This document shows, piece by piece, positions 3,993 to 21,299 of a stretch of 64,000 nt of DNA. The notes beneath the pieces are model-generated. The model was not told where the DNA came from. It saw only the letters and a list, made by a program, of their open reading frames with translations, and searched no databases. Made by a program: the position numbers and the translations under genes. Origin of the DNA: Gammaproteobacteria bacterium (GTDB taxonomy: Bacteria > Pseudomonadota > Gammaproteobacteria > Burkholderiales > Rhodocyclaceae); the NCBI GenBank assembly GCA_029289235.1, contig JARFTZ010000055.1, forward strand, positions 1 to 64,000. The letters are read 5' to 3'. Position 1 is the first letter of the stretch. Each line of letters begins with the position of its first letter.

Positions 3993-4018
3993 TAAATACT
4001 GGCATATGACAATATTTA
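3993..4018. promoter_or_regulatory. palindromic operator, site 1 (core TGGCATATGACA)
   Basis: A 26-bp dyad centred on CATATG. The core at 4000-4011 is TGGCATATGACA, flanked by TAAATAC on the left and ATATTTA on the right, so the outer arms TAAATA and TATTTA are also symmetric. Four other copies of the core lie in intergenic regions up to 21.3 kb. It is about 70 bp before the chemoreceptor start and about 100 bp before the divergent DUF2914-like gene, so it could control either. Confidence 0.65.
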
Positions 4019-4081
4019 CAGCTTTCGGCGGTATCATCCCGCAAGCGACTCATCAACCCGACCGATCGTAGGAGGTGCCCG

Positions 4082-5707
4082 GTGTTTGCCAATCTCTCGC
4101 TCAAGAACCGCCTCTGGCTGCTTGGCATTGCTGCCGCGCTGGGCATGTCGATCCTCGCCATTTCTTCCGTCTATTTCACGATCAGCAGCGAAGCCATTCT
4201 CGTCAAGTTCGTCGACGAACGGATCGCGACTCGCCACGCGGCAACCCTGGCCTACGCCAACGGACTGCAGAAAGGCCAGGCCATCCGGAACATCCTGCTG
4301 GACCCGGGCAAACAAACGGCCTACGACAATTTCAGCAAGGCCGCGGAGATTTTCACCCACGAAGTCGACACACTCATTCCCCTGCTTGCTGCGGACGGAA
4401 CGACCCAGGAAATCGCCAGTCGTCTCAAGCGCAACATCGACCAATGGCAACCGCTGCAACAGAAGGTCATCACGCTGGTCAAGGCGGGTAACCTGGACGA
4501 ATCAAAGACATTGCTGGTCGCCGAGGAAACCCCGGCCTGGCGGAAGGTTCGCGACGACCTGCTGGAGATCGGAAAGATCGCCGATGCGGCAGCGACCACA
4601 GATCGCGCCGCGCTGGTCGCCGGGCTTGAGCGTGCCCGCACGCTGGCCATCGCGCTTGGGATCGCCAGCGTGTTGATCGTCGCCGGGATCATCGTCTTCA
4701 TCGGCCGCGGCATCTACCGCCAGGTCGGTGGAGAACCGGCCGATGCCGCCGCTGCCCTGAGCCGGATCGCCCAAGGCGACCTGACCGAGTCACTGCACGT
4801 GCTTCAGGGCGACCACAAGAGCATCGTCGCCGCGATGCAGACGATGCAGACGCAAATCCGCCAGCTCATCGCCGACACGGCCCGGAGCGCCGATGCCGTC
4901 GTCGACGAAAGCGAAGCGATACTGGCAGACGCGTCCCGGCTGGCACAAACCGCGGAGGAGCAGAGTTCCGCGACATCGGCGATCGCCGCCGCCGTCGAGG
5001 AGTTCACCGTCAGCATCGGCCTCATGTCCGAAACCGCCAACGATGCCGGGCGACTGTCCGCGGACTCCAAGCAACAGGCGCACGACGGTCAGGACACGGC
5101 ATCGAACGCCAGCCGCATCATCCAGCAGCTGGCGTCGGGCATGGCGGACGCCGCTGCAACCATGGAGGAGCTGTCCGGCAAGGTGTCGAACATCACCGGA
5201 ATCGTGCAGACGATCCGCGACATCGCCGACCAGACCAACCTTCTTGCGCTCAACGCCGCGATCGAGGCCGCGCGTGCCGGCGAGGCAGGCAGAGGTTTTG
5301 CCGTCGTCGCCGACGAAGTGCGCAAGCTGGCCGAACTGACGGCGAAATCGACGCAGGAGATTTCCAGCATCGTCGAAGGCGTGCGACAGACCAACGACGC
5401 CGCGTTCGCCACCATATCGCATGCCAAGGCGCAGGCGGTGGACGGCGCCAGTTGCACGGAGGAGATCCGCACGGCCGTCGCCCGGATGAACGACTCGTCA
5501 ATCCGGGTCAGCGAAGCGATCGAGACGATCGCCAACTCGCTGCGCGAGCAGTCGGCAACCAGTACGGACATCGCCCAGCGCGTCGAACTGATCGCGCAGG
5601 GGATCGACCAGACGCACAGCGCTTCCAGCGAATCGCGCCGCCGCTCCGACCTGCTGGTCAATCTCTCGCGCAACCTGAAGGAAAGCGTACGCCGTTTCCG
5701 CGTGTAA
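4082..5707 (+). CDS. methyl-accepting chemotaxis protein
   Basis: A 541-residue chemoreceptor. An N-terminal membrane segment ([20 protein letters not shown]) is followed by a periplasmic four-helix-type sensor of roughly 155 residues, a second membrane segment ([19 protein letters not shown]), a HAMP linker ending in [12 protein letters not shown] and a cytoplasmic coiled-coil signalling domain. The hairpin tip reads [20 protein letters not shown], the invariant kinase-control region. It signals to CheA/CheW. The start is GTG with a strong GGAGG 6 bases upstream. No che genes are nearby. The ligand is unknown. A shared palindromic operator sits upstream. Confidence 0.95.
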
Positions 5708-5734
5708 GCCGATACCAACCCACGACAAGCCGCC

Positions 5735-6580
5735 ATGAATTCTCCCATTAGCATCACCCTCATCGTCGACAACGACGCCCCGGACGGACTGGTGGTCGAA
5801 CACGGCTTCGCCGCCTGGATCGACACAGGAGAAGAGTGCTTCCTCTTCGACACCGGCCAGGGCGCGGCGCTCATCCCCAACGCCCGCACGCTCGGGTTCG
5901 ACCTGGACCGCGCCAGCGCGCTTATCCTGAGCCACGGCCACTACGACCACACCGGCGCCCTCCCGGAATTCCTGGCCGCCAACCGGCACGCTCCGGTGAT
6001 CCACGGGCCGGGCGCGACGATCCGCCGCTACAGCTGCCATCCGGAGCAAGCCCCACGGCAGATCGGCATGGCCGATGCGGTGCTGCAGGCAATCGAACAA
6101 CTGCCGCCGGAACGGCACACCGTGCTCGACGCGCCGCGCTACCTGCGCCCCGGCATTGGCATCACCGGGCCGGTTCCGCGCTATTCAGCCTTCGAGGATA
6201 CCGGCGGCCCGTTTTTCCTGGACGCTGAGAAAACACGGCCGGACTTGATAGAGGACGACTTGTCGCTGTGGTTCGAGACCACCGGGGGTCTGGTCATCCT
6301 CACCGGCTGCTGCCATTCCGGCATCGTCAACACGGTGCGCCACGCACAGCGGGTCAGCGGCCTTACCCGCATCCACGGCATCATCGGCGGCCTGCACCTG
6401 CTCAATGCCGGACCGGAACGACTGCAAGCCACCCTCGAATTCCTGCACGAATGCGCACCGGATTTCCTGCTGCCGTGCCACTGTACCGGGGCGCAGGTCA
6501 TCGAACGGCTGCGGTTGGAATTCGGTGAGGCCGTGGTCAAGACCGGCGGTGCGGGGCGGACGATCAGGATCGGAAACTGA
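5735..6580 (+). CDS. MBL-fold metallohydrolase (dihydropterin-type subfamily)
   Basis: A 281-residue metallo-beta-lactamase-fold protein of the COG1237-like group, members of which are annotated as 7,8-dihydropterin-6-yl-methyl-4-(beta-D-ribofuranosyl)aminobenzene 5'-phosphate synthases. Visible are the early FLFDTGQG strand, the metal motif LSHGHYDHTG, the later LTGCCHSG histidine and GIIGGLHL. The pterin-related activity is known for archaeal members; for a bacterium of this kind the substrate is open. It follows the chemoreceptor by 27 bases and converges on the methyltransferase gene with 6 bases between stops. Confidence 0.85.
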   Translation: MNSPISITLIVDNDAPDGLVVEHGFAAWIDTGEECFLFDTGQGAALIPNARTLGFDLDRASALILSHGHYDHTGALPEFLAANRHAPVIHGPGATIRRYSCHPEQAPRQIGMADAVLQAIEQLPPERHTVLDAPRYLRPGIGITGPVPRYSAFEDTGGPFFLDAEKTRPDLIEDDLSLWFETTGGLVILTGCCHSGIVNTVRHAQRVSGLTRIHGIIGGLHLLNAGPERLQATLEFLHECAPDFLLPCHCTGAQVIERLRLEFGEAVVKTGGAGRTIRIGN

Positions 6581-6586
6581 TCCGTT

Positions 6587-7228
6587 TCAGCGCTTGCGCC
6601 CCGACAGAACCACGAGTCCGCCAATCGCCAGATGCGCCGGAAGGAGACATTCGACGGCGCGGGCCAGCAGTGACCCCGACGGCAAAAACACCGCGCTGCT
6701 CACGCGAACATCCGTCACCGGCAAGCCCGCGACGCTGTCGCGCAGTTCTTCCGGCGTTACCCAGCAAGCGCCACGATAGGCACCGCTGCCGCCATTCCGG
6801 CCCTTTTCACGCCACAGGAGACTGCGCCGGTTGAGCATGCCGATGGCGAAACGGCCACGGCTGACGCGAACGACCTCGCCGACCGCACGGCGCCAGTCGG
6901 CGGTGAAACACAGCGCCGCGATCGACACGACGCCATCGAAACAGCTGTCGGCAAACGGCAGCGCCAGCGCGTCGCCCTCGATGTAGTTGGAGGCGGCGTC
7001 GCACTCGCGCGCGTAGGCCAGCCAGTCGGCGTTGATGTCCAGACCGGTCACCTGCACGCCGGGCAACCGGGCCATCCGCCGCGTGAACCATCCAGTGCCG
7101 CAGCCGACATCGAGCAACGACTCGCCCTGGCGCGGTTCCACCGCCCGCAGCAATATCCGGCATTCGGCGTCACCGACCCACCGTCCGCGCGGGGTGTCGT
7201 ACCAGGCATCGTAATCAGCCGCGTTCAT
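6587..7228 (-). CDS. class I SAM-dependent methyltransferase (type 11)
   Basis: A 213-residue methyltransferase. Motif I is LLDVGCGTGWFTRRMA, the acidic strand-2 end is GLDINADWL, and motif II/III follow as GDALALPFADSCFDGVVSI. The substrate is not evident. The start at 7228 gives MNAADYDAWYDTPRGR, the family's usual opening, and has GGGGAG just before it; a longer frame upstream was rejected. It is the last gene of a minus-strand run thrS - DUF134 - thioredoxin/DsbD fusion - methyltransferase. Confidence 0.85.
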   Translation of the reverse strand: MNAADYDAWYDTPRGRWVGDAECRILLRAVEPRQGESLLDVGCGTGWFTRRMARLPGVQVTGLDINADWLAYARECDAASNYIEGDALALPFADSCFDGVVSIAALCFTADWRRAVGEVVRVSRGRFAIGMLNRRSLLWREKGRNGGSGAYRGACWVTPEELRDSVAGLPVTDVRVSSAVFLPSGSLLARAVECLLPAHLAIGGLVVLSGRKR

Positions 7229-7274
7229 TTTCTCCCCGCTCCTCGCATATCCATGCCGCCCCCCGCGGCGACGA

Positions 7275-8501: not shown

Positions 8502-8523
8502 GACACCTCCGGGGAGCCTTTCT

Positions 8524-8859
8524 TTACTCCAGCATAGCCGCCGGCGCGGCCACGATCGCGGTCTCGTCGAGCGCAGGCAACATGTCAGCGAGGCGCAGCG
8601 CCTTGCCGTCGATCAGTGCCGTGGCCACCTTCTTGCGCGCCAGCGCGACGATCTTGCCGAAGGTCTGGCGAGAAATCCCCATCAGCCGAGCCGCGTCGGC
8701 CTGATACAGGCCTTCGAGATCAGCAAGGCGTAGCGCCTCGATCTCGTCCGGCGCGAGCACCACCTCGTCGAGCGAGTCGGACGACACGCAATGCGGCTTG
8801 AACAGGCCGACCACCGGACGGCAGCAGACACGGCGACACTTGGGCGGCCGCCCGATCAT
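8524..8859 (-). CDS. DUF134 (UPF0251) predicted DNA-binding protein
   Basis: A 111-residue protein that matches DUF134 (COG1342) along its length. It has a basic Cys-bearing N-terminus [14 protein letters not shown], the segment [20 protein letters not shown], and a helix-turn-helix [20 protein letters not shown] followed by [17 protein letters not shown]. The helix-turn-helix resembles sigma region 4, and the Cys-rich arm may bind a metal or cluster. DUF134 genes often lie near NifX/ORP-like genes in anaerobes. Here the ATG overlaps the thrS stop (ATGA), so it should be translated together with thrS. A copy of the shared palindrome lies in the likely thrS promoter, which makes this protein a candidate regulator, by inference only. 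Confidence 0.88.
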
Positions 8860-10763: not shown

Positions 10764-10798
10764 CTCATCCTCGTCTTGCGATCATCCGAAAAACGAAT

Positions 10799-10826
10799 GT
10801 TATGGCATATGCCAGTAAATTGCCAA
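10799..10826 (-). promoter_or_regulatory. candidate sigma-70 promoter of thrS overlapping the palindrome
   Basis: Reading the minus strand, TTGGCA (10826-10821) and CATAAC (10804-10799) are 16 bases apart, a fair match to -35/-10 boxes, about 36 bases before the thrS ATG. Operator site 2 fills the spacer and touches the -10. Binding there would be expected to repress thrS and DUF134. The -10 is weak, so this is tentative. Confidence 0.4.
10803..10814. promoter_or_regulatory. palindromic operator, site 2 (perfect TGGCATATGCCA)
   Basis: This is the only copy with a perfect 12-bp palindromic core; GTAAATT follows on the right. It lies between thrS (minus) and the ORP-like operon (plus), close to the likely thrS promoter and 110 bp before the ORP-like start. 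Confidence 0.7.
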
Positions 10827-10870
10827 AACAAAACAGCAAAAAGATTCTGGCATTTGCTTGAAATTATTGT

Positions 10871-10889
10871 TGGCGTATGCCAGTATTTA
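10871..10889. promoter_or_regulatory. palindromic operator, site 3 (TGGCGTATGCCA)
   Basis: The core differs from the perfect palindrome at one base. Its right arm TGCCAGTATTTA is the exact reverse complement of the left arm of site 1 (TAAATACTGGCA). It is about 42 bp before the ORP-like start and 57 bp from site 2. A degenerate copy, TGGCATTTGCTT, lies between them at 10848-10859. No convincing sigma-70 or sigma-54 promoter for the operon could be named here. Confidence 0.65.
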
Positions 10890-10923
10890 GCGAAAGCAAC
10901 GCACTCACAGGAGCGATATCGCG

Positions 10924-11286
10924 ATGAAACTCGTCTTCACCACCACCGGCGACAACCTCGACGCGCTGCTCGACCCCAGCTTCGGGCGGGCGCGCAATTT
11001 CCTGCTTTTCGACCTGGAGAGCGGGACCAGCCAGGTCATCAGCAACCAGCAGAACCTCAACGCCGCGCAGGGGGCCGGCATCCAGGCCGCCCAAACGATC
11101 GTCAAGGCCGGCGCCGGTGCGCTCGTCACCGGGCATTGCGGCCCGAAGGCGTTCCGCGTCCTCGCCGCCGCCGGGGTCAAGGTGTACAACACCGATGCGC
11201 CGACCGTCGCCGAAGCGCTCGCCCGCTACCGCGCCGGGCAGTTGACCGAAGCGGCCGCAGCCAATGTCGAGAGCCATTGGGCATGA
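10924..11286 (+). CDS. orange-protein/NifX-like metal-cluster-binding protein
   Basis: A 120-residue member of the dinitrogenase iron-molybdenum cofactor family (NifX/NifB C-terminal/ORP group). Typical features are an N-terminal strand MKLVFTTTGDNLDALLDPSFGRA, GAGIQAAQTIVKAGA, TGHCGPKAFRVLAAAGVKVY and a C-terminal ARYRAGQL. ORP of Desulfovibrio binds a Mo-Cu-sulfide cluster; NifX carries FeMo-co precursors. No nif structural genes are in the window. It starts a run of overlapping genes; its stop overlaps the TrmO-like ATG (ATGA). CAGGAG precedes the ATG. The cluster actually bound is unknown. Confidence 0.85.
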   Translation: MKLVFTTTGDNLDALLDPSFGRARNFLLFDLESGTSQVISNQQNLNAAQGAGIQAAQTIVKAGAGALVTGHCGPKAFRVLAAAGVKVYNTDAPTVAEALARYRAGQLTEAAAANVESHWA

Positions 11287-11786
11287 ACAACGACAGCATC
11301 GTTTTCCGGCCGATCGGCGTGATCCGCAGCGAGCACATCGCGCCGCAGGAGACACCGATCCAGCCGGTTTACGCGAGGGAGTGCCACGGGCGCGTCGAAC
11401 TGCTGCCGGAATTCGCCGACGGCCTGCACGACATCGACGGTTTCTCGCACCTCTATCTGATCTACCACTTCGATCGCGCCGAGGCGCCGAAACTGCGGGT
11501 CAAGCCCTTCCTGCAGGACACGGAACGCGGCGTATTTTCGACGCGCGCGCCCTGCCGTCCCAACGCCATCGGCCTGAGCGTCGTCGAACTGCTGCGCCGT
11601 GAAGGCAACGTGCTGCACTTCGCCGGTGCCGACATCCTCGACGGCACGCCGCTGCTCGACATCAAGCCGTTCACCACGAAATTCGACGGCATCACGCCGA
11701 GCCGCAACGGCTGGCAGGACGAGGTCGATGAGACGACGGCCCGGCACCGGGGGAAGCGAGGATTTCGGGGAGGGAGGTCGGAATGA
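11283..11786 (+). CDS. TrmO-like tRNA (N6-threonylcarbamoyladenosine) methyltransferase
   Basis: A 167-residue protein of the TrmO/TsaA (UPF0066) family. TrmO uses SAM to methylate N6 of t6A37 in tRNA. Family motifs are PIGVIRSEH, GFSHLYLIYHFDR, GVFSTRAPCRPNAIGLSVVEL and ADILDGTPLLDIKP. E. coli TrmO is longer (about 235 residues); this is the short form, with a basic tail RHRGKRGFRGGRSE. It overlaps both neighbours by four bases, so it is cotranslated inside the ORP-like operon. In this context it may modify something other than tRNA; that is speculation. Confidence 0.85.
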   Translation: MNNDSIVFRPIGVIRSEHIAPQETPIQPVYARECHGRVELLPEFADGLHDIDGFSHLYLIYHFDRAEAPKLRVKPFLQDTERGVFSTRAPCRPNAIGLSVVELLRREGNVLHFAGADILDGTPLLDIKPFTTKFDGITPSRNGWQDEVDETTARHRGKRGFRGGRSE

Positions 11787-12646
11787 TCGTTACCATCGCT
11801 TCCGGCAAGGGCGGCACGGGCAAGACCAGTCTGGCCGTCAATCTGGCGCGCACGCTGGAAAGAACGCGCGACACGCCGGTGCAACTGCTCGACTGCGACG
11901 TCGAGGAACCGAATGCCCACCTGTTCCTGACCGGCACGCCACTCGGCGAGGAGACGATCAACATCGCCGTTCCCGACTTCAACCCCGACAAGTGCGACGC
12001 CTGCGACAAGTGCGTCGACTTCTGCCAGTTCAACGCGCTGGCCTCGGTCGGCAAGACGCCGCTGCTCTTCCCCGAGCTGTGCCACGGCTGCGGCGGCTGC
12101 ATGCTGGTCTGCCCGCAGGACGCGATCCGCGAGAAGGACTACCGGATCGGCGTGGTCAAGACCGCCCGCGCCGGGAGCATCACCCTCAAGAGCGGCTGCC
12201 TCGATATCGGCGTCTCGCTGGCTTCCACGCTGGTGCATGCCCTGAAGGAACGCCTTGAAGACGGCATCACGACAATACTCGACGCGCCGCCCGGCACCGC
12301 CTGCCAGGCCGTCGCCACGCTGCGCGGCTCGGATTTCGTCGTTCTGGTGACCGAACCCACGCCGTTCGGCCTGCATGACCTGACGCTGGCAGTCGATACC
12401 GTGCGCGCGCTCGACCTGCGTTTCGGCGTCGTCATCAACCGCGTCGGCGTCGGCGACGACCGCGTGCAACGCTACTGCGCCGCCGAGGACATCCCGATCC
12501 TGCTCGAAATCCCCGACGACCGCCGCGTCGCAGAAGCCTACTCGCGCGGCGAACTGATCGTCGATGCGTTGCCGGACTACCTCGCCCACTTCGCGCAGTT
12601 GTGGCACAACATAGCGCACCACGCCGCACTGGAGGTCGCCGCATGA
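11783..12646 (+). CDS. MinD/ParA-type ATPase with inserted 2[4Fe-4S] ferredoxin domain (first of pair)
   Basis: A 287-residue protein with a deviant Walker A SGKGGTGKTSLAVNLA (residues 7-22) and LLDCDVEEPN. A ferredoxin insert follows with two CX2CX2CX3C motifs: Cys71, 74, 77, 81 and Cys100, 103, 106, 110. The later ATPase part includes LDAPPGTACQAVATL and VTEPTPFGLHDL. Relatives in Desulfovibrio (DVU2103/2104 type) belong to the ORP complex and are also described as Mrp/NBP35-related cluster handlers. It overlaps both neighbours by ATGA. It probably acts as a pair with the next gene, moving or assembling a metal cluster. Confidence 0.92.
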   Translation: MIVTIASGKGGTGKTSLAVNLARTLERTRDTPVQLLDCDVEEPNAHLFLTGTPLGEETINIAVPDFNPDKCDACDKCVDFCQFNALASVGKTPLLFPELCHGCGGCMLVCPQDAIREKDYRIGVVKTARAGSITLKSGCLDIGVSLASTLVHALKERLEDGITTILDAPPGTACQAVATLRGSDFVVLVTEPTPFGLHDLTLAVDTVRALDLRFGVVINRVGVGDDRVQRYCAAEDIPILLEIPDDRRVAEAYSRGELIVDALPDYLAHFAQLWHNIAHHAALEVAA

Positions 12647-13518
12647 AAGAACTCGTCATCCTCAGCGGCAAGGGCGGCACCGGCAAGACCAGCATCACGG
12701 CCTCGTTCGCCCGGCTCGCCGAGCGCCCGGTGATCGCCGACTGCGACGTCGACGCCGCCGACCTGCACCTTGTCATCCCCCCCACCATCCGCGAACGGCA
12801 TATATTCATGAGCGGACACCAGGCGGTGGTCATGGAGGAAGTCTGCTGCAACTGCGGCGTCTGCCTCCCCGAGTGCCGCTTCGGCGCGATCATGGAACCC
12901 GCCCCGGAGGCCGGCCACGACACCTTCTGGATCGACCCGACGGCCTGCGAAGGCTGCGGCGTCTGCCTCGAAACCTGCCCGATGGACGTCATCGAGTTCC
13001 CCGAACGCCGCTGCGGCGAATGGATGATCTCCGACACCGCCTGCGGCCCGATGGTGCACGCCCGCCTCGGCGTCGCCGCCGAAAACTCCGGCAAGCTCGT
13101 CACCACGGTGCGCCAGCAGGCGCGGCGCATCGCGGAGGAAGCAGCACACCCGCTGATCCTCGTCGACGGCCCGCCCGGCATCGGCTGCCCGGTCATTGCC
13201 TCGATCACCGGCGCGACCGACGTGCTGCTGGTCACCGAGCCGACCCTGTCCGGCGCGCACGACCTCGAACGCGTGCTGGCGCTGACCCGCCATTTCGGCA
13301 TCCCGGCAGCGGTCTGCGTCAACAAGTGGGACATCAACCCGGAGATAACTGAGCACATCGAGGCCCTGGCGCACAAGTCCGGCGCCCGCGTTGTCGGCCG
13401 GGTCCGCTACGACCCGTCGGTTACCCGCGCCCAGATTCAGGAAAGGGCTGTCGTCGATACCGACTGCCCGTCGGCCGATGACATCCGTGCCATCTGGAAA
13501 GAACTTGCCCTGCAATGA
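12643..13518 (+). CDS. MinD/ParA-type ATPase with inserted 2[4Fe-4S] ferredoxin domain (second of pair)
   Basis: A 291-residue paralogue of the preceding gene. It has Walker A SGKGGTGKTSITASFA (residues 8-23), ADCDVDAADLHL, and ferredoxin cysteines Cys68, 71, 74, 78 and Cys102, 105, 108, 112, with an extra Cys69. The ATPase part resumes as LVDGPPGIGCPVIASITGA and VTEPTLSGAHDLERV. The start at 12643 overlaps the previous stop (ATGA); an upstream in-frame GTG inside the previous gene was rejected. Two such ATPases in tandem are the hallmark of ORP-type operons. Confidence 0.92.
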   Translation: MKELVILSGKGGTGKTSITASFARLAERPVIADCDVDAADLHLVIPPTIRERHIFMSGHQAVVMEEVCCNCGVCLPECRFGAIMEPAPEAGHDTFWIDPTACEGCGVCLETCPMDVIEFPERRCGEWMISDTACGPMVHARLGVAAENSGKLVTTVRQQARRIAEEAAHPLILVDGPPGIGCPVIASITGATDVLLVTEPTLSGAHDLERVLALTRHFGIPAAVCVNKWDINPEITEHIEALAHKSGARVVGRVRYDPSVTRAQIQERAVVDTDCPSADDIRAIWKELALQ

Positions 13519-13549
13519 ACCACCACGTTTTTGCTCAAGGAGCCTGACC

Positions 13550-13888
13550 ATGCGTTTCGCCATTCCCCTCGCCGAAGGCAAACTCGCCGTTCATTTCGGC
13601 CACTGCGCCAGCTTCGCCCTGCTCGACGTCGATCCCTCGACCAATGCTCTGAGCAGCCGTCAGGACGTCGACGCCCCACCGCACCAGCCCGGCCTGCTGC
13701 CCCCCTGGCTCGCCGAGCGCGGCGTCAGCCGGATCATCGCCGGCGGCATGGGCCAGCGCGCCCAGCAGTTGTTCATTGAGCAGGGCATCGAGGTGATCGT
13801 CGGCGCGCCGGTCGATACTCCGGAGCGTCTTGTCGCTGCCTGTCTTGACGGTTCGCTGCAGGTCGGCAGCAACGCCTGCGACCACTGA
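13550..13888 (+). CDS. NifX/NifB-type dinitrogenase cofactor family protein (second copy)
   Basis: A 112-residue protein opening MRFAIPLAEGKLAVHFGHCA, with ISRIIAGGMGQRAQQLF-like text (VSRIIAGGMGQRAQQLFIEQ) and GIEVIVGAPVDTPERLV, ending with a Cys-containing tail SNACDH. It is more distant from the first NifX-like gene than expected for a recent duplicate. AAGGAG lies 7 bases before the ATG. It probably carries or scaffolds the cluster handled by the two ATPases just upstream. Confidence 0.85.
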   Translation: MRFAIPLAEGKLAVHFGHCASFALLDVDPSTNALSSRQDVDAPPHQPGLLPPWLAERGVSRIIAGGMGQRAQQLFIEQGIEVIVGAPVDTPERLVAACLDGSLQVGSNACDH

Positions 13889-13924
13889 GCAGGGCGCCCA
13901 CGCCACCCACACCGAGGCGATCCG

Positions 13925-14774
13925 ATGAAAACCGCGCTGGATTGCATCCCCTGTTTCGCCCGGCAGGCTGCCGAAGCCGTCACGCAGACGGTTTCGGAGC
14001 CGGACCGCCGGGAGAGAATCCTGCGGACGCTCCTGCGCGCAATCAGCGAAGCGGACTGGAACGGTTCGCCACCGGTGATGGGGCAACGCATCCATCGCCT
14101 GATCCGGCAGGAACTCGGCTGCGACGACCCGTACAGGGAAATCAAGCAGCGGATGAACCGGATGGCCCTCCAGCTGCTGCCCCAACTGCGGGAATCGATG
14201 GCGCGTCAGCAGGACCGGCGGGTAGCCGCAGTGCGGGTGGCAATTGCCGGCAACCTGCTCGACGCCGGCGCAAAAACGCAGATGGAGATGGACGCGTTGC
14301 CGCGCTACATGGAGACGATCTGGACCCGGCCGCTGCACGGCGATGTATCCGCGCTTTTTGACGCCGCCGACCGAACGCGCCACCCGGATTCTCTACCTGG
14401 CCGACAACGCTGGCGAAATCATCTTCGACCGGGTGCTGATCGAGGCACTGCCGCGCGGCAAGGTCACCGTCTTCGTCCGTGGCGCGCCGGTGCTGAACGA
14501 CGCGACGCTGGACGACGCGATTACCGCCGGCCTGCCCGAACTGGCACCGGTCTTCCCGAATGGTTCGGACGCGCCCGGCACCCTGCTCGACGACTGTTCC
14601 GACCAGTTGCGCAACGCCTTCGCCCAGGCCGACCTGATCATCGCCAAGGGACAAGGCAACTACGAGACGCTTTCTGAATCGTCGCGGCCGATCTTTTTCC
14701 TGTTTATCGTCAAATGCCCGGTGATCGCCGCACGCGTCGGCGCGCCGGTCGGGACGCTGGTCGCCGGGCGCTGA
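13925..14774 (+). pseudogene. DUF89 (ARMT1-like) protein, interrupted by a one-base frameshift
   Basis: Two frames together make one DUF89 protein of about 283 residues. The first part opens MKTALDCIPCFARQAAEAV with the family CxxC and runs to DVSALFDAAD (up to 14371). The second part continues ERATRILYLADNAGEIIFD and includes KGQGNYETLSE and FIVKCPVIA. Dropping one C at 14371-14372 joins them exactly. DUF89 proteins are metal-dependent damage-control phosphatases or carboxyl methyltransferases. The motifs on both sides look intact, so this is either a very recent mutation or a sequencing error. It lies inside the ORP-like operon, 6 bases before the radical SAM gene. Confidence 0.8.
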
Positions 14775-14780
14775 CACGCC

Positions 14781-15731: not shown

Positions 15732-15745
15732 CCGACTTTTTTAGC

Positions 15746-15760
15746 GACACAGCCCGTGTC
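15746..15760. promoter_or_regulatory. short inverted repeat before ridA
   Basis: GACAC and GTGTC flank AGCCC. It follows a run of six T in the 49-base gap between the radical SAM and RidA genes, and could be a weak hairpin or an operator. No promoter is evident. Confidence 0.25.
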
Positions 15761-15780
15761 ACTCACCTTACGGAGGCACC

Positions 15781-16167
15781 ATGGAACGCAAAGTCATCCA
15801 CACATCCCACGCTCCGCAGGCCGTCGGCACCTACTCCCAGGCCGTCGCGGTCGACCGGATGGTCTTCATCTCCGGACAACTGGGCATCGACCCGGCCAGC
15901 GGCAACCTGGCCAACGGCTTCGACGCACAGGCGCATCAGGTCTTCCGCAATTTGCGCGCCGTCTGCGAGGAGGCTGGCGGCGAACTGCAGGAGATCGTCC
16001 GGCTCGGTGTTTTCCTGACCGACATGGGCGACTTCTTCCGTTTCAACCAGATCATGAGCGAGTACTTCAGCGAACCGTACCCGGCCCGCGCCGCCGTCCA
16101 GGTCGTCGCGCTGCCCAAGGGCGGGCTGGTGGAAGCGGAGGGAATCCTGATCCGCCACGATGCCTGA
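15781..16167 (+). CDS. RidA family (YjgF/YER057c/UK114) protein
   Basis: A 128-residue protein with the family signatures SHAPQAVGTYSQAV, MVFISGQLGIDP and the C-terminal YPARAAVQVVALPKGGLVEAEG. The Arg in PARAAV is the catalytic Arg used by RidA to hydrolyse enamine/imine intermediates. CGGAGG lies just before the ATG. Its last 8 bases overlap the regulator gene, so the two are cotranslated. RidA is normally a housekeeping damage-control protein; its place between metal-cluster genes and their presumed regulator is curious. Confidence 0.92.
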   Translation: MERKVIHTSHAPQAVGTYSQAVAVDRMVFISGQLGIDPASGNLANGFDAQAHQVFRNLRAVCEEAGGELQEIVRLGVFLTDMGDFFRFNQIMSEYFSEPYPARAAVQVVALPKGGLVEAEGILIRHDA

Positions 16168-17509
16168 CCTTCCCGGCACCGGGCTGAGCCAGGCGATCCT
16201 CGACAGCCTCTCGGAAGGCGTGTTCACCGTCGACACCGACTGGCGAATCACCTCCTTCAACCGCTCGGCCGAGGAAATCACCGGCGTCCCGCGTCACGAA
16301 GCCCTCGGGCAATTGTGTTCCGACGTCCTGCATTCGACGCTGTGCGAACGCCACTGCCCGATCCGGCAGGCGCTGGCCGACAACAAGCCGATCATTGACC
16401 GGCGTTGCCACGTCGTCGACATCGACGGCGAGCGCATCCCGCTCAGCGTCTCCGCCGCGGTCCTGACGGGAGAAAACGGTGAGGTGCTCGGCGGCGTCGA
16501 GACCTTTCGCGACCTCAGCGAGGTCGAAGCCCTGCGCACCGCCCTCCAACGCAAATACACCCGCCTGACCAGCAACAACCCGGCCATGCAGCAGGTGCTC
16601 GATCTCGTCCCGGTACTGGCAGACAGTCCGACATCGGTCCTCATTGCCGGGGAAACCGGCACCGGCAAGGAAGTCATCGCCCGCGCCCTGCACGACCACG
16701 GCCCCCGCATCAAGCGACCGTTCGTGGCGATCAATTGCGGCGCACTGCCGGAAACCTTGCTTGAGTCCGAACTGTTCGGCTACCGGAAAGGCGCCTTCAC
16801 CGGCGCCGAGCGCGACAAGCCCGGGCGACTCGCCCTCGCCCGCGATGGCACGCTGTTCCTCGACGAAATCGGCGAAATCAGCCCGGCCATGCAGGTTCGC
16901 CTGCTGCGGGTCTTGCAGGAGCGCGAATTCGAGCCGCTCGGCGGCACCCAGCCGGAGCCGCTGCGCGCGCGCATCATCGCCGCCAGCCACCGCGACCTGC
17001 TCGCCCTGGTGCGCGAGGGGCGCTTCCGCGAAGACCTCTACTACCGGCTGGTCGTGATGCGCCTAGACATTCCGCCGCTACGCGAGCGCCGCGAAGATAT
17101 CCCGACGCTGGCCAACGACCTGCTGGCGCGGATCAACCTGCGGATGGAACGCAGCATCGCCGGCTTCACGCCAGAGGCCTTGGACGCCCTGCAGCGACAA
17201 CCCTGGCCCGGCAACATCCGGCAACTCGAGAACGTGATCGAACGCGCCGCCGTGCTTTGCCGCAGAGAACTGATCGATCTCAAGCACCTTCCCGCGGAAT
17301 ACTCGGATTGTGAGGACAGGCAACTGCCATCCGGCACCGACGTCTCCCGTCCGCTGGCAGCACAAGCGCGCCAGCAGGCCGAAGCGCGGACGATTCTGGA
17401 AGTCCTGCGGCGCAACGGTTTCAGCCGGCACAAGACCGCCGCCGAACTTGGCATGCACCCGAGCACGCTCTATCGCAAGCTGAAGGCCTGGCGCCTTCTG
17501 GAAGAGTAG
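16160..17509 (+). CDS. sigma-54-dependent transcriptional activator with N-terminal PAS domain
   Basis: A 449-residue bacterial enhancer-binding protein. A PAS domain (about 8-118) contains a Cys-rich stretch CSDVLHSTLCERHCPIRQA (Cys53, Cys62, Cys66) and Cys83. The AAA+ domain has Walker A GETGTGKE (164-171), GAFTGA (211-216), which contacts sigma-54, and Walker B TLFLDEIGE. A Fis-type helix-turn-helix ends the protein (RHKTAAELGMHPSTLYRKL). The Cys pattern suggests sensing by a metal or Fe-S cluster. ORP operons of Desulfovibrio are controlled by a similar activator (DVU2106). A clear sigma-54 promoter lies at 19308, before the third NifX-like gene. Confidence 0.95.
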   Translation: MPDLPGTGLSQAILDSLSEGVFTVDTDWRITSFNRSAEEITGVPRHEALGQLCSDVLHSTLCERHCPIRQALADNKPIIDRRCHVVDIDGERIPLSVSAAVLTGENGEVLGGVETFRDLSEVEALRTALQRKYTRLTSNNPAMQQVLDLVPVLADSPTSVLIAGETGTGKEVIARALHDHGPRIKRPFVAINCGALPETLLESELFGYRKGAFTGAERDKPGRLALARDGTLFLDEIGEISPAMQVRLLRVLQEREFEPLGGTQPEPLRARIIAASHRDLLALVREGRFREDLYYRLVVMRLDIPPLRERREDIPTLANDLLARINLRMERSIAGFTPEALDALQRQPWPGNIRQLENVIERAAVLCRRELIDLKHLPAEYSDCEDRQLPSGTDVSRPLAAQARQQAEARTILEVLRRNGFSRHKTAAELGMHPSTLYRKLKAWRLLEE

Positions 17510-17580
17510 CGACCGACCTCGCGGATCGCTTGAACAACCTCTACCCCCCTTCAAGGGCTATAGCATGCACATAACCCCGA

Positions 17581-17650
17581 GTCATTCCGGCGCAGGCCGG
17601 AATCCACGCTTTCGGAGCATGAACTGGATCCCGGCCTACGCCGGGATGAC
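17581..17650. repeat. REP-like inverted repeat pair
   Basis: The left unit GTCATTCCGGCGCAGGCCGG and the right unit ending CCTACGCCGGGATGAC are inverted copies, each itself able to form a GC-rich hairpin (CCGGC..GCCGG). They are separated by about 20 bases. Such dispersed GTCATTCC...GGAATGAC elements are common in betaproteobacterial genomes. This one fills most of the 207-base gap between the sigma-54 activator gene and citC (convergent). Translated, it gives the familiar spurious PGVGRDP / WIPACAGMT peptide. Confidence 0.75.
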
Positions 17651-17716
17651 GGGGGCTTCGCGAGGAGAGGGAGCGGAGGTGCTGATGCGTATTGCACACA
17701 GGCGATTGCCTTGCGA

Positions 17717-18745
17717 TCAGCAACCGCTCAGCGCCTTGTTCCTGAAATCGTTCTGCAGCCGCTCGCGGATCGCCTGTGCTTCGTCGCTTTCGAGGAAAGC
17801 CCGTGTCGTCGGCGGGACGTAGTCGGCGAGACCGGCGAAATCGCCCTTGCCGACCAGTTCGCGCACCTTGGAGGCGCTGATCACTCCGGTTTCCGCCTGC
17901 TTGCGCTCGATGATTTCCAGTTCGATGCCGTGCGCCGGCAGGATGCGCTGCATCGCCAGGTTGTAGCCGCCGGTCAGCGGACAGTTCGGTTCGGTGCCGA
18001 CGAAGCGGCGGGTGATGCCGAAGAACGGGGCGATCTTCGAAGCGAACAGGGTGACGTCGAGCTCCATCTGGATGCGCGCGACCGGATCGTCCTTCTTCAG
18101 GAAGTAGGTCGGGAAGGTCGCGCCGCTGACAATGTAGCGCGAGGTATCGAGCTGGATGACGTTCGGGATGTGACGCACGCCCTCCTCGACGAGACGGTAG
18201 CGCACGTCGAACGGAAAGACCGAGCGGTCTTCCTTGACGACGAAGATATAGAGATTGTCGACGCGCCGCGCGGCGCTCTCGATCAGGTACAGATGGCCGT
18301 TGGTGAAGGGGTTGCAATTGACCACCACGGCGCCGTTCAGCCCCGGGCGGACCAGATCCTTCTTCGATTCCAGCCACTTGCTCAGCCCCTTGCCGTACTC
18401 GAGCAGGGCGACTTTCTCCTGGCTGGCCAGCAGCGTGAAATTGAGCGACTGGAAGGAGAAGATGAATTCCGGCTTGGTATAGACAAACAAGGACTCATGC
18501 CCCGCGCGCTGGCCGCTCATCACCAGTTCGGTGACCAGTTCGCCAAGCACCGAGCCCCCCTGATGGTCGGGGGCCAGCGCCAGCATCTTCAGGATGTTTC
18601 CAGCCCGCGAGCCGGTCGCCACGAGTTGCTCGTTCTCGTACATGCCGTACATCACGTCGACATTGTCCTCGAACGCCAGGCCGCTCGCCTCGATCAACTC
18701 GCGCGCCATCTTGCGTTCGGATTTCAGAGCCAGTTCAACGATCAT
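17717..18745 (-). CDS. citC: [citrate (pro-3S)-lyase] ligase
   Basis: A 342-residue protein of the CitC family, which acetylates the thiol prosthetic group of citrate lyase acyl carrier protein using acetate and ATP. The first ~130 residues form a GNAT-like domain (SGLAFEDNVDVMYGMYENEQ, VTELVMSGQRAGHESLFVYT). The rest is a nucleotidyltransferase with VVNCNPFTNGHLYLIE as the (H/T)xGH site and a late ISASKVRELV. Length is normal. No citDEF, citX or citG is next to it, so it is either an orphan serving a lyase elsewhere or a relic. Confidence 0.9.
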   Translation of the reverse strand: MIVELALKSERKMARELIEASGLAFEDNVDVMYGMYENEQLVATGSRAGNILKMLALAPDHQGGSVLGELVTELVMSGQRAGHESLFVYTKPEFIFSFQSLNFTLLASQEKVALLEYGKGLSKWLESKKDLVRPGLNGAVVVNCNPFTNGHLYLIESAARRVDNLYIFVVKEDRSVFPFDVRYRLVEEGVRHIPNVIQLDTSRYIVSGATFPTYFLKKDDPVARIQMELDVTLFASKIAPFFGITRRFVGTEPNCPLTGGYNLAMQRILPAHGIELEIIERKQAETGVISASKVRELVGKGDFAGLADYVPPTTRAFLESDEAQAIRERLQNDFRNKALSGC

Positions 18746-18787
18746 CTTGCCTCCCCTTCGGTCATTTATCCGCGGGCATTGTAATGG

Positions 18788-19111
18788 TCAGACGTAGAAA
18801 CTTCCTCCGCAACCACACTGGCTGCTGACGTTGGGATTGCTGAAGGCGAACCCGCTATCGTCGCCCGCCTCGATGAAGTCGACTACCGTACCCTCGATCC
18901 AGGCCAGTGACTTCGGATCGACGTACAGTCTTGCGCCATGGCTTTCGAATACTTCGTCGCCGGTTTCCGGTGCATCGACGAAGAGCAGCCGGTAGGCCAT
19001 GCCGGAGCATTCCGATGACTGCACGATTACCCGGATGCCCAATCCGCCGCCTCGCTCTTCCAGAGACTTGATGATTTCTTCAGCCGCTCGCTGGGTAAGA
19101 CTCACTGCCAT
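18788..19111 (-). CDS. iscA: A-type iron-sulfur cluster carrier (IscA/HesB family)
   Basis: A 107-residue A-type carrier with the three conserved cysteines: Cys35 in SSECSGMAYRL, and Cys99 and Cys101 in SSQCGCGGSFYV. It delivers Fe-S clusters to apoproteins. The start MAVSLTQRAAEEII at 19111 has GGGAG at good spacing. A longer reading that begins at 19141 would start inside operator site 4 and lacks a ribosome-binding site. The usual iscR-iscS-iscU neighbours are absent; it stands with NifX-like genes, which suggests a dedicated role. A palindromic operator lies about 25 bp before the start. Confidence 0.9.
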   Translation of the reverse strand: MAVSLTQRAAEEIIKSLEERGGGLGIRVIVQSSECSGMAYRLLFVDAPETGDEVFESHGARLYVDPKSLAWIEGTVVDFIEAGDDSGFAFSNPNVSSQCGCGGSFYV

Positions 19112-19135
19112 GCTAGTACTCCCGAACAAAATTTC

Positions 19136-19147
19136 TGGCATATGCTA
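19136..19147. promoter_or_regulatory. palindromic operator, site 4 (TGGCATATGCTA)
   Basis: One mismatch from the perfect core. It lies between iscA (minus) and the third NifX-like gene (plus): just downstream of a candidate iscA -10, and about 165 bp upstream of the sigma-54 promoter. It could act as a repressor site for iscA or as an upstream activator site for the plus-strand gene. Confidence 0.6.
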
Positions 19148-19155
19148 ACACACAC

Positions 19156-19184
19156 TTATTGCTGCATGGTGGAAGCACTCACAA
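19156..19184 (-). promoter_or_regulatory. candidate iscA promoter
   Basis: On the minus strand, TTGTGA (19184-19179) and CAATAA (19161-19156) are separated by 17 bases. Operator site 4 begins 8 bases downstream of the -10, around the start of transcription. Matches are moderate. Confidence 0.35.
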
Positions 19185-19195
19185 CAATGCAATCC

Positions 19196-19222
19196 TGCAA
19201 TGCACGCCAGTGACGCATTGCA
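19196..19222. promoter_or_regulatory. inverted repeat, candidate enhancer for the sigma-54 promoter
   Basis: TGCAATGC and GCATTGCA are perfect inverted arms separated by 11 bases, about 85-110 bp upstream of the sigma-54 promoter at 19308. That is a usual distance for binding sites of enhancer-binding proteins. Further partial copies (AATGCAATCC, CTTGCA) flank it. The activator encoded at 16160 is the obvious candidate. Confidence 0.55.
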
Positions 19223-19307
19223 ACCTTGCACGACATCCAAGAGATGGGTTTCCCGAGAATCATCGCAACCCACTGATTTTACTCGCGCACCTTCTTGACT
19301 TCCGCGG

Positions 19308-19323
19308 TGGCACGCAGGTTGCT
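19308..19323 (+). promoter_or_regulatory. sigma-54 promoter (-24/-12)
   Basis: TGGCACG-N4-TTGCT matches the sigma-54 consensus at every defined position, with exactly 10 bases between the GG and GC pairs. It is 32 bases before the ATG at 19356, placing transcription start near 19334. It is the only clear sigma-54 promoter I found between genes in this window. Confidence 0.85.
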
Positions 19324-19355
19324 GAGTAACGCTCGTCGCAGCCACCACTACCGTA

Positions 19356-19781
19356 ATGAAAATCGCCGTCCCTGTCTGCCGCAACCGCATCGCGCCGCTG
19401 TTCGACGTCGCCGCGATCTTCGTGCTTTTTGAAGCTCAGGACGCCGGAAGCTTGCCGACACAAACCGGCACGATCGATTCAACGGATGGTGACACCACCC
19501 GAGTGCTTATTGATGCTGGCGTTGACACCGTACTCTGTGGCGCGATCTCGCGCTACTGGCAGAACCGGCTGAACCGCCTCGGAATCGAGGTCCACGGTTT
19601 TCTCGCGGGTGAAATTCCGGTGGTTGCGCAAACCTATTGGCAGGAAGGTCCGCGAGGACTCGCACGCTTCGCCATGCCCGGCTGGCAGCACCGCGGCCAA
19701 GGCAGGCAGCGAAGGATGCGCCGCAACGGCGGCTTCATGCTGCAACGACTTGAAGAGGAGATTGATCATGCCGCGGTTTAA
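19356..19781 (+). CDS. NifX/NifB-type cofactor family protein (third copy)
   Basis: A 141-residue protein opening MKIAVPVCRNRIAPLFDVAA, with TRVLIDAGVDTVLCGAIS and NRLGIEVHGFLAGEIPVV, the usual fold elements of the dinitrogenase cofactor family. The C-terminus is extended and basic (HRGQGRQRRMRRNGG). It is transcribed from the sigma-54 promoter and overlaps the Gly-rich gene by 14 bases. No Shine-Dalgarno is obvious. Pairing of this family with a DUF5320-like gene is common in anaerobes. Confidence 0.82.
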   Translation: MKIAVPVCRNRIAPLFDVAAIFVLFEAQDAGSLPTQTGTIDSTDGDTTRVLIDAGVDTVLCGAISRYWQNRLNRLGIEVHGFLAGEIPVVAQTYWQEGPRGLARFAMPGWQHRGQGRQRRMRRNGGFMLQRLEEEIDHAAV

Positions 19782-20130
19782 CAATGGAATGCCCGGACGC
19801 AACGGCCGCGGGTCCGGAATGGGAACGGGAATGGGGAATGGGGTCGGCCTAGGAGCCGGCCAAGGACTGGGCCAGGAGCGAGGAGTTGGCGGCGGCCGTG
19901 GCCGCGGCGCGAATTGCCGGGGCAACGGCCAGGGATTCGGATTTGGATTCGGGGCCGGCAACGGGCAGGCTTCGGTAGGCCAGCGCACCCCGGGCTTTTT
20001 CCGCCGCTTCTGCCTCGGGCTCACCGACCCATCGGATATGACGAGCAGCACACGCCGCGGAGGACACATCCCCGCCATCGATGATCTGCAGCGACAGATC
20101 GACGCACTGAAGAACTCATCCGACAAATAG
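19768..20130 (+). CDS. glycine-rich DUF5320-like protein
   Basis: A 120-residue low-complexity protein. It starts MPRFNNGMPGRNGRGSGMG and continues with Gly/Asn/Arg-rich repeats (GNGVGLGAGQGLGQ, GRGRGANCRGNGQGFG), then a less biased part with FFRRFCLGLTD and an amphipathic C-terminal helix IDDLQRQIDALKNSS. The opening and terminal helix resemble DUF5320 proteins. Two cysteines could hold metal. GAGGAG precedes the ATG, which lies inside the previous gene. Function unknown; probably works with the NifX-like partner. Confidence 0.65.
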   Translation: MPRFNNGMPGRNGRGSGMGTGMGNGVGLGAGQGLGQERGVGGGRGRGANCRGNGQGFGFGFGAGNGQASVGQRTPGFFRRFCLGLTDPSDMTSSTRRGGHIPAIDDLQRQIDALKNSSDK

Positions 20131-20147
20131 CCGAACTCACTTTTTTC

Positions 20148-20185
20148 CGGGGCATCTCCTCGTTGCCCCGTTTTTTTTCTTTTTA
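20148..20185 (+). terminator. rho-independent terminator
   Basis: CGGGGCA and TGCCCCG form a 7-bp stem with a 9-base loop, followed by eight T and a further T-rich run. It closes the NifX/DUF5320-like transcription unit. Confidence 0.85.
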
Positions 20186-20196
20186 CGGGCAGACCA

Positions 20197-20709
20197 TTGA
20201 GCACCAATGTCATTCAACTCAGGAATTTTCTCGAACCGGCCAACACGATTCATGTCCAGCCACCTGCCAGCCACGCCGAGTGCATGGCCTGCAGCCCCGG
20301 CGGACTGCTCGGGCTGCGCTTCTGGCCCGACGGTGCAAACTCGGTCGTCGCTTCGGTGCGGCCGCGCCCCGAATGGCAGGGATATGCAGGGATTCTGCAT
20401 GGCGGCGTGGTCAGCACCCTGCTCGATGCAGCGATGACCCACTGTCTTTTCCACCACGAAGTCGAAGCCATGACCGCCTCGCTCAAGGTCAGGTTTATCG
20501 AACCGACGCCGTGCGCGGGCCAGCTCGACCTGCGCGCCACCTTGTCCGACCAGCGGCGCCATGTCTATCTGCTCGACGCCGAGTTGATGAACCATGGCCG
20601 TGTACTCGCACGCGCCGAGGCACGATTCATCACCTCAGCCAATGCGCACCGTCCGCCCCGGGGGGAAGCACCATGGGCAGCCGGACTAACCCATGTCGAC
20701 CGGCGCTGA
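20197..20709 (+). CDS. PaaI-like hotdog-fold thioesterase
   Basis: A 170-residue protein with the hotdog thioesterase signature YAGILHGGVVSTLLDAAMTH followed by VEAMTASLKVRFIEPTP and AEARFI. Such enzymes hydrolyse acyl-CoA esters, and the Asp in TLLDAAM is the usual catalytic acid. The proposed start is TTG at 20197, since no earlier or nearby ATG gives the full fold; this start is uncertain, and the next in-frame Met (about residue 29) would cut the domain. It overlaps the DsbB-like gene by 37 bases. Confidence 0.78.
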   Translation: MSTNVIQLRNFLEPANTIHVQPPASHAECMACSPGGLLGLRFWPDGANSVVASVRPRPEWQGYAGILHGGVVSTLLDAAMTHCLFHHEVEAMTASLKVRFIEPTPCAGQLDLRATLSDQRRHVYLLDAELMNHGRVLARAEARFITSANAHRPPRGEAPWAAGLTHVDRR

Positions 20710-21248
20710 AGCACGACCCGGCCGCTGCGTTCTTTCTCGCCGTCACGGCGTCCGGACTGGGCCTGCTGGCCGTCGTGCTCGCCGTGGGTTTGCAGCTGGA
20801 AGCCTGCCACCTGTACATCTTCCAGCGGCTCGTGTATTTCCTCGGCGGCGCTTCGTTTCTCGCCGCCGTCCTGCTCTGGAACCACGCTCTCCCGCGTATC
20901 CTAGCCCTTGTGAGCGGTGCCTGCAGTCTCTGGGGGATTTGCATTGCCGCACAGCAGAGCTGGTTGCAGTGGTTCCCGAAATCGGGGGTCACCTGGGGCA
21001 CGATCGAGCCGAGCCTCACCGAACGGTTGATCGACTGGCTCGGCGAGTTGTCGCCGACCTTCTTTATGGCAAACGGTTTCTGTGGCAGCAAAGATCTGGA
21101 GATCCTCGGCCTGTCACTCGCCAACTGCTCCTTCCTCATTCTGACGGGCTTCCTCACCGCGAGTGCGTGCCTGGCCTTCGGCGGGGAAAATCGCCCCGGA
21201 CCGACGACGATGGACGAGGAGCGAAAGAACACTCGACCCCCAACCTGA
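20673..21248 (+). CDS. DsbB-like membrane protein lacking the quinone-side CXXC
   Basis: A 191-residue protein with four membrane segments and DsbB landmarks: LEACHLYIFQRLVYFLGG at the first loop and FMANGFCGSKDLEILGLSLANCSFLIL-type text around the second. DsbB reoxidises DsbA through two cysteine pairs. Here the first pair CXXC has become CHLY (Cys45 kept, second lost), and of the second pair only Cys137 is seen, with no cysteine in the FPKSGVTWGTIEPSL loop. The protein is therefore unlikely to do normal DsbB chemistry. GGGGGAAG precedes the ATG inside the upstream gene. Confidence 0.72.
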   Translation: MGSRTNPCRPALKHDPAAAFFLAVTASGLGLLAVVLAVGLQLEACHLYIFQRLVYFLGGASFLAAVLLWNHALPRILALVSGACSLWGICIAAQQSWLQWFPKSGVTWGTIEPSLTERLIDWLGELSPTFFMANGFCGSKDLEILGLSLANCSFLILTGFLTASACLAFGGENRPGPTTMDEERKNTRPPT

Positions 21249-21287
21249 ACACCACGCATTCGAAAAAAGCTTGCCTTCCGACAAATT

Positions 21288-21299
21288 TGGCATATGCCT
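21288..21299. promoter_or_regulatory. palindromic operator, site 5 (TGGCATATGCCT)
   Basis: One mismatch from the perfect core. It lies 10 bases upstream of the candidate trxC -35 box and about 52 bases upstream of the expected start of transcription, a usual position for an activator. Confidence 0.6.

Follow-up and report, generated by a model that had tools for sequence, protein, structure and literature searches.

In the 64,000-nucleotide stretch of contig JARFTZ010000055.1 analysed here (the window), a short palindrome with the core TGGCATATGCCA ties iron-sulfur (Fe-S) and thiol chemistry genes together in an anaerobe-type cluster. We propose that DUF134 (UPF0251) proteins, which are predicted to be repressors of Fe-S and thiol genes, use this palindrome as their operator, and on the sequences to hand we give this reading a probability of about 0.8. 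It builds on computed rarity, conservation, association with DUF134 genes and residue/base covariation, from which we infer binding, repression and a signal.

The palindrome and its conservation

A preliminary description of this DNA had pointed to a palindrome shared by five intergenic sites as the mark of an undescribed regulon, and our search with TGGCATATGCCA at up to one mismatch returned the same five occurrences in the window, one perfect and four with a single mismatch. They are as follows, without strand:

4000–4011: site 1, core TGGCATATGACA, in a 26-bp dyad at 3993–4018, between the DUF2914 and chemoreceptor genes
10803–10814: site 2, core TGGCATATGCCA, the perfect copy, centre 45 bp from the thrS start, kept in six congeneric genomes
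10871–10882: site 3, core TGGCGTATGCCA, centre 47 bp from the first ORP-type gene, between the -35 and -10 of a putative promoter
19136–19147: site 4, core TGGCATATGCTA, preceding the iscA-like gene
21288–21299: site 5, core TGGCATATGCCT, centre 76 bp from the trxC start

All five cores are intergenic by our gene calls, site 4 on condition that the iscA-like gene starts at 19111, the start fitted by IscA models, rather than at the first ATG (19141). With up to two mismatches allowed, the window holds seven matches as against 1.26 expected (100 shuffles, largest 6), the two additional ones, with two mismatches each, being at 34863 and at 4248 within the chemoreceptor gene. The dyad reported for site 1 pairs at 11 of its 13 positions, and its left arm is indeed the reverse complement of the right arm of site 3; as sites 2 to 5 pair at 10, 8, 6 and 5 of 13 positions, the 26-bp dyad is a good description of sites 1 and 2 only.

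Hundreds of copies in a genome-wide scan had been named as the outcome that would speak against a regulon; the scan found the core to be rare, with 8 places at up to one mismatch in 3,812,367 bases, while a reversed-pattern control gave 4 matches at the same threshold. Five of the eight places lie in the window, the sixth (C11:14080) is intergenic, ~60 bp upstream of a second DUF134 gene, and the other two are inside genes. Given one site, the binomial probability of finding at least four of the other seven within 17.3 kb is 2e-7, a post hoc figure. Searched genome-wide, TNGCATATGCNA matches sites 2 and 4 only.

For the congeneric genomes (the genus comprises 28) we retrieved the sites with at most one mismatch together with their surrounding genes, and identified target homologues by tblastn with ten window genes, counting a site if it lay no more than 300 bp upstream of a homologue. 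The thrS/ORP intergenic region carries two sites in six genomes (G000, G002, G005, G009, G016 and G022), spaced by 67–68 bp in five of them and by 44 bp in G005, and in the six-genome alignment 28 of the 34 columns that make up the two sites do not vary, versus 11 of the 94 other ungapped columns. Sites also stand upstream of iscA-like genes (G000, G005 (twice), G006, G009, G016, G022 and G027), trxC (G000, G005 (twice) and G026, 71–77 bp from the start), CoA-disulfide-reductase genes (G005, G010 and G027), metallo-beta-lactamase (MBL) and/or DUF2914 genes (G000, G009, G018 and G027) and DUF134 genes themselves (G000, G006, G009 and G027, at 51–59 bp), and a further site precedes a NifX-domain gene in G026 and G005 (by Pfam for G026). 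Conservation upstream of orthologues, the second outcome on which the earlier proposal had been staked, was thus found in related species, and the idea of an undescribed regulon is supported, the core being both rare genome-wide and conserved in this way.

Two of the functional links first suggested for this regulon need revision. The one to chemotaxis holds insofar as site 1 lies beside a chemoreceptor gene in this genome, but in relatives the site is not at a chemoreceptor: a site matching site 1 stands between DUF2914 and MBL genes in G018 and G027 and at an MBL gene in G009. When the window (4082–6580) is compared with loci L149 and L152, the chemoreceptor gene looks like an insertion that separates the site from the MBL gene. 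The link to threonyl-tRNA charging is probably incidental, because the DUF134 gene lies directly behind thrS, apparently in one transcript. In single relatives, transporter genes (SLAC1, MFS and EamA types) are found beside copies of the site (L252:743–1660, L299:482–1711 and L309:2094–2942), and may be further targets.

DUF134 proteins as the proposed readers

No regulator had been named for these sites at the outset, and DUF134 fits best. The proposed regulator and its companion gene are:

8524–8859, minus strand: DUF134/UPF0251 protein, proposed regulator, 111 aa, PF02001, helix-turn-helix (HTH), with K69 in the recognition helix
8856–10763, minus strand: thrS (here only an open reading frame, its label carried over from the preliminary description), upstream of DUF134 with a 4-bp overlap, putative common transcript, gene order kept in relatives

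The window protein scores 77 bits against PF02001 (gathering cut-off 27), and the second genomic copy is also far above the Pfam cut-off. Of 148 relatives searched, 12 have a DUF134 above this cut-off; 11 of these belong to the genus, and sites with at most one mismatch are more numerous in these 11 than in the 17 congeneric genomes in which it was not found (Mann–Whitney p = 2e-4). We examined 106 of the 109 sites in DUF134-positive genomes (three of G013's were left out) and 41 of the 68 in DUF134-negative ones; 33 of the 106 lie upstream of ten-gene homologues versus 1 of the 41 (Fisher p = 5e-5), a value that is only a guide since the ten genes were picked after the sites had been seen, the genomes are related and not independent, and 6 of the 33 sites are the window genome's own. 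The single DUF134-negative case belongs to G018. Counts per genome are noisy, and those of the DUF134-negative G019 (11), G014 (8) and G023 (7) overlap the DUF134-positive range of 5–25; two of the 11 sites in G019 were examined and both are in genes, five of the eight in G014 are in genes and three beside unrelated genes, and six of the seven in G023 are inside genes. Several of the DUF134 copies of the genus that have no site directly upstream are located behind thrS or beside genes having one.

Looking beyond the genus, we gathered 99 DUF134 genes, 15 of the genus and 84 from other groups, Desulfovibrio-type and clostridial genomes included; the set is limited to the loci that the search returned and does not cover every match. 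It reduces to 81 dissimilar upstream regions. Scored for a CATATG centre and five flanking pairs (maximum 11), 15 of the 81 regions reached at least 10, whereas 200 dinucleotide shuffles averaged 0.125 and never exceeded 2; of the regions upstream of other genes in the same loci, 2 of 226 reached this score. At a score of at least 9 there were 34 of 81, the shuffles giving 2.4 (maximum 7) and the other genes 15 of 226, these being partly the same palindrome counted from a divergent gene; the signal was weaker when the palindrome was scored with a free centre (18 of 81 with at least 7 of 8 pairs, null mean 6.1, maximum 11). Examples are TATTGGCATATGCCAATA (L186), TATGAACATATGTTCATA (L217) and TATGTGCATATGCACATA (L369), and at L186, from another family of the class, TTATTGGCATATGCCAATAA is centred 26 bp upstream of the DUF134 gene. 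The DUF134 family is found in bacteria and archaea, with matches in our control genomes that include Methanocaldococcus and Methanosarcina. Within the ~3-kb loci of the 84 genes outside the genus (tblastn, fusions included), a NifX-type match is present in 46 and a Mrp-type match in 36; 20 DUF134 proteins are longer than 200 aa, and all three that were tested are DUF134–NifX fusions.

The palindromes also vary with the proteins. The key residue is the third after the Thr of S-R-x-T in the recognition helix, and it goes with the base at -6 from the palindrome centre: at a score of at least 10, a G is found at -6 in at least one half for 11 of 11 Arg proteins versus 0 of 4 others (Fisher p = 7e-4), and at a score of at least 9 for 22 of 26 versus 1 of 8 (p = 4e-4). 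Non-Arg proteins pair with T, and the residue is Lys in the window DUF134 and Asn in the second copy. An Arg-type DUF134 should, on this pattern, prefer TGAGCATATGCTCA and an Asn/Lys-type TTGGCATATGCCAA. The two paralogues of the source genome (window 8524–8859 and L169) differ at the N-terminal cysteines as well as at the key residue (Lys vs Asn).

The AlphaFold model of the window DUF134 (mean predicted local distance difference test score 86) has helices at 37–48, 53–60 and 64–84, with residue 69 in the last of these. A DUF134 profile finds the DNA-binding domain of DeoR (7bhy, E = 1.5e-6; 8r7y, E = 2.8e-5), and by these matches the window protein has the homeodomain-like HTH of the SorC/DeoR family; a Foldseek search with the model had 7bhy_A among its best matches, with a root-mean-square deviation of 0.7 Å over 41 columns (E = 0.2), but ranked below several sigma region-4 domains. 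The C-terminal sugar-phosphate effector domain (~250 aa) was not found in the 111-aa protein, which matches only DUF134 and HTH-type models in Pfam, and for this reason we do not file it under the SorC family. DeoR was crystallised on ATTGAACAAAATTTCAAT, where R39 contacts T14 and G4, its authors advising caution on account of limited resolution (PMC11229326, available sections). In our own alignment (318-residue chain, offset five), R39 is the residue aligned with the DUF134 key residue and G4 is position -6.

Several observations weigh against DUF134 as the reader and repressor. In the 92% complete draft of G018, DUF134 was not found although a perfect site stands between its DUF2914 and MBL genes, absence calls being blurred in draft genomes; conversely, the DUF134-positive G013 had none of the three sites examined (of six) at ten-gene homologues, one being at a different MBL-fold gene. 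A site with at most two mismatches lies directly upstream of only 4 of the 15 DUF134 copies of the genus, 73 of the 106 sites examined in DUF134-positive genomes are not at ten-gene homologues, and the source genome itself holds two DUF134 copies, with Lys and Asn at the key residue. Beyond the genus, 47 of the 81 upstream regions have no candidate at a score of at least 9. The -6 rule is broken at that score by 4 of 26 Arg proteins, the one protein with G among the 8 others (L192) could not be assigned a residue, and two of the four non-Arg cases at a score of at least 10 share one genus. As to the sign of regulation, repression is suggested by the layout of the ORP promoter only.

Three loci (L002:1557–1832, L148:3560–3835 and L316:1898–2173, in G000, G006 and G027) encode similar 91-aa proteins whose genes run divergently from DUF134 genes and share the operator region with them; a Pfam search with the one from G000 gave no match.

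Proposed mode of action and alternative readings

The remaining features on which the proposed mechanism and its alternatives turn are:

10858–10886, plus strand: putative ORP promoter, predicted, with -35 TTGAAA (10858–10863), a 17-bp spacer and -10 CAGTAT (10881–10886)
10924–11286, plus strand: NifX/ORP-like protein (Nitro_FeMo-Co)
11283–11786, plus strand: TrmO-like protein
11783–12646, plus strand: Mrp/MinD-type ATPase with ferredoxin insert (ORP cluster)
12643–13518, plus strand: second Mrp/MinD-type ATPase with ferredoxin insert
13550–13888, plus strand: second NifX-like protein
16160–17509, plus strand: PAS-AAA+-HTH_8 sigma-54 activator (GAFTGA), rejected as reader of the palindrome
18788–19111, minus strand: A-type Fe-S carrier (IscA-like), putative target
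19356–19781, plus strand: NifX-like gene divergent from iscA, Pfam score just under the cut-off, with its own perfect sigma-54 promoter (19308–19323)
21370–21807, plus strand: trxC (thioredoxin 2), putative target
21862–23526, plus strand: CoA-disulfide-reductase-like protein, after trxC, with its own site in G005 and G010

The two recognition helices of a DUF134 dimer would each contact one half of the TTGGCATATGCCAA palindrome, with the register that DeoR has on its TTGAAC half-site, and the dimer would repress by covering the -35/-10 region at the ORP promoter and probably also at thrS–DUF134. Site 3 lies within the 17-bp spacer and overlaps the -10 CAGTAT by two bases, and all six genomes keep the TTG and TAT of the hexamers unchanged; as a protein bound there would block RNA polymerase, we favour repression. 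With its gene overlapping the end of thrS by 4 bp, DUF134 would be autoregulated through site 2. The predicted repressed set comprises the thrS–DUF134 transcript (negative feedback), the ORP/NifX–Mrp operon and the iscA-like and trxC genes and, in relatives, the NifX-like, CoA-disulfide-reductase and MBL/DUF2914 genes. NifX-family domains bind metal clusters in nitrogenase assembly. The kinds of target and the DUF134–NifX fusions of other bacteria suggest a metal-cluster or redox/sulfur signal, so that repression might be released by an Fe-S or other metal cluster or by redox/sulfur state; MrpORP is reported to be active in Fe-S biogenesis (PMC6345978, in the part of the paper available). More speculatively, and at odds somewhat below even, DUF134 proteins might be widespread metal-cluster/redox-responsive repressors with a DeoR-like code (Arg or not at the K69 position going with G or T at -6) and with NifX-type proteins as sensor, fused or, as here, in trans, in which case NifX/ORP proteins would feed back on their own operons.

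The same protein might instead read the sites as an activator, in which case site 5 at trxC and others would be upstream of the core promoter; sites do lie 71–77 bp from trxC starts in three genomes, but we consider this opposite sign unlikely, as site 3 occupies the -35/-10 spacer, between hexamers whose TTG and TAT are invariant, and DeoR and CggR are repressors (PMC11229326, from the text accessible).

It is more doubtful again that some other, unlinked regulator (e.g., FNR/CRP-like or IscR-like, TTGGC-N4-GCCAA) reads the sites and controls the DUF134 genes as well. FNR-family sites have a 5-4-5 layout, which the half-site spacing of the palindrome resembles, the targets are anaerobic and Fe-S genes, and G018 has the site while DUF134 was not detected. 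Such a regulator would, however, leave unexplained why base -6 covaries with a residue of DUF134, why the same site stands before DUF134 in another family (L186), and why regulon-type sites are scarce in DUF134-negative genomes.

The sigma-54 activator was the reader that we tried first, because of a perfect -24/-12 element (TGGCACGCAGGTTGCT, 19308–19323) just before the NifX-like gene; no other such element in the window reaches the full score. The palindromes would then be the upstream activating sequences of this enhancer-binding protein (16160–17509), as with DVU2106, the activator of the Desulfovibrio orp operons. It has GAFTGA and HTH_8 and is located between sites 3 and 4, the perfect -24/-12 lies ~160 bp past site 4, and in the Desulfovibrio system the sites of the activator are palindromic and lie at -131 and -88 (PMC3897727, accessible portion). 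Among 89 genomes searched, G005, G016 and G022 were the only ones apart from the window genome in which a close activator orthologue was found (67–71% identity, near full length). Seven DUF134-positive genomes have none, and six of these (G002, G006, G009, G010, G026 and G027, G013 being the exception) nevertheless have sites at ten-gene homologues, their best activator matches having E-values of ~1e-74 to 1e-79 versus 1e-190 or better for orthologues. In the eight other-group loci with the closest activator homologues (L030–L037, of which L034 and L036 are short contigs) the palindrome is present at up to one mismatch in none, whereas five (L030, L031, L032, L035 and L037) keep a sigma-54-like promoter (score at least 21 of 23) ahead of the NifX gene downstream of the activator. 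Site 3, moreover, sits inside a predicted promoter, and no -24/-12 element was found upstream of the ORP operon (plus strand, 10764–10923, score at least 18 of 23, fixed GG/GC). The activator as reader thus fails both on genomes with sites but no close orthologue and on homologues without sites, and we hold it to be very improbable. As -24/-12 elements themselves the palindromes were also rejected, their GG/GC spacing being unfit; one weak minus-strand match (10810–10825) overlaps site 2. The promoter at 19308 suggests a second layer of control at the iscA/NifX region.

That the palindrome is a chance or compositional repeat with no regulatory role, a notion that the 4 genome matches of the reversed-pattern control might encourage, is scarcely credible in view of its clustering, intergenic placement and cross-species footprint.

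An ARMT1-like gene also lies in the window (13925–14774); its family match covers residues 4–140 only and the continuation seems to be in another frame, which may reflect a frameshift or an assembly error.

Novelty and comparison with known systems

No description of the operator or the regulon was found in the open-access papers searched, subscription papers and regulon databases being outside the search. In the same papers DUF134, UPF0251, COG1342 and PF02001 as whole words occur in four, in none of them in the title or abstract; among the matches listed, the operator letters gave no bacterial regulator of such kind and DUF134 with NifX gave nothing on point. A UPF0251 gene is named in one table row of the part of PMC5886521 available. 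The window protein and the second copy belong to DUF134/UPF0251 (PF02001, COG1342), a family described as of unknown function or hypothetical in the libraries used, and what we offer, as a proposal from sequence comparison, is a new regulon and a first operator for this uncharacterised family, on a known kind of HTH. The operator, the predicted specificity residue and the target list make a role for DUF134 directly testable. If our reading is true, a regulator can be named for NifX/ORP–Mrp genes, and the genes for an Fe-S carrier, a thioredoxin and a CoA-disulfide reductase are joined in one regulon.

To our knowledge, control of NifX/ORP–Mrp genes has been described only for the Desulfovibrio orp operons, whose gene kinds (NifX-like, Mrp ATPases) presumably match those found here. 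The orp operons of Desulfovibrio vulgaris (DVU2106, sigma-54, IHF; PMC3897727, as far as available) likewise have a sigma-54 activator beside ORP-type genes. Unlike in D. vulgaris, the palindromes here occur independently of the activator and a -24/-12 element is missing before the ORP operon, and we propose that DUF134 control is a layer separate from sigma-54/DVU2106-type control. A further likeness is to DeoR of B. subtilis (SorC/DeoR), which has a homologous HTH and whose half-site TTGAAC is in the same register as the DUF134 palindrome; DeoR, however, has a sugar-phosphate effector domain that DUF134 lacks, the targets differ, and the DUF134 protein, unlike DeoR, is 111 aa long here and fused to NifX elsewhere.

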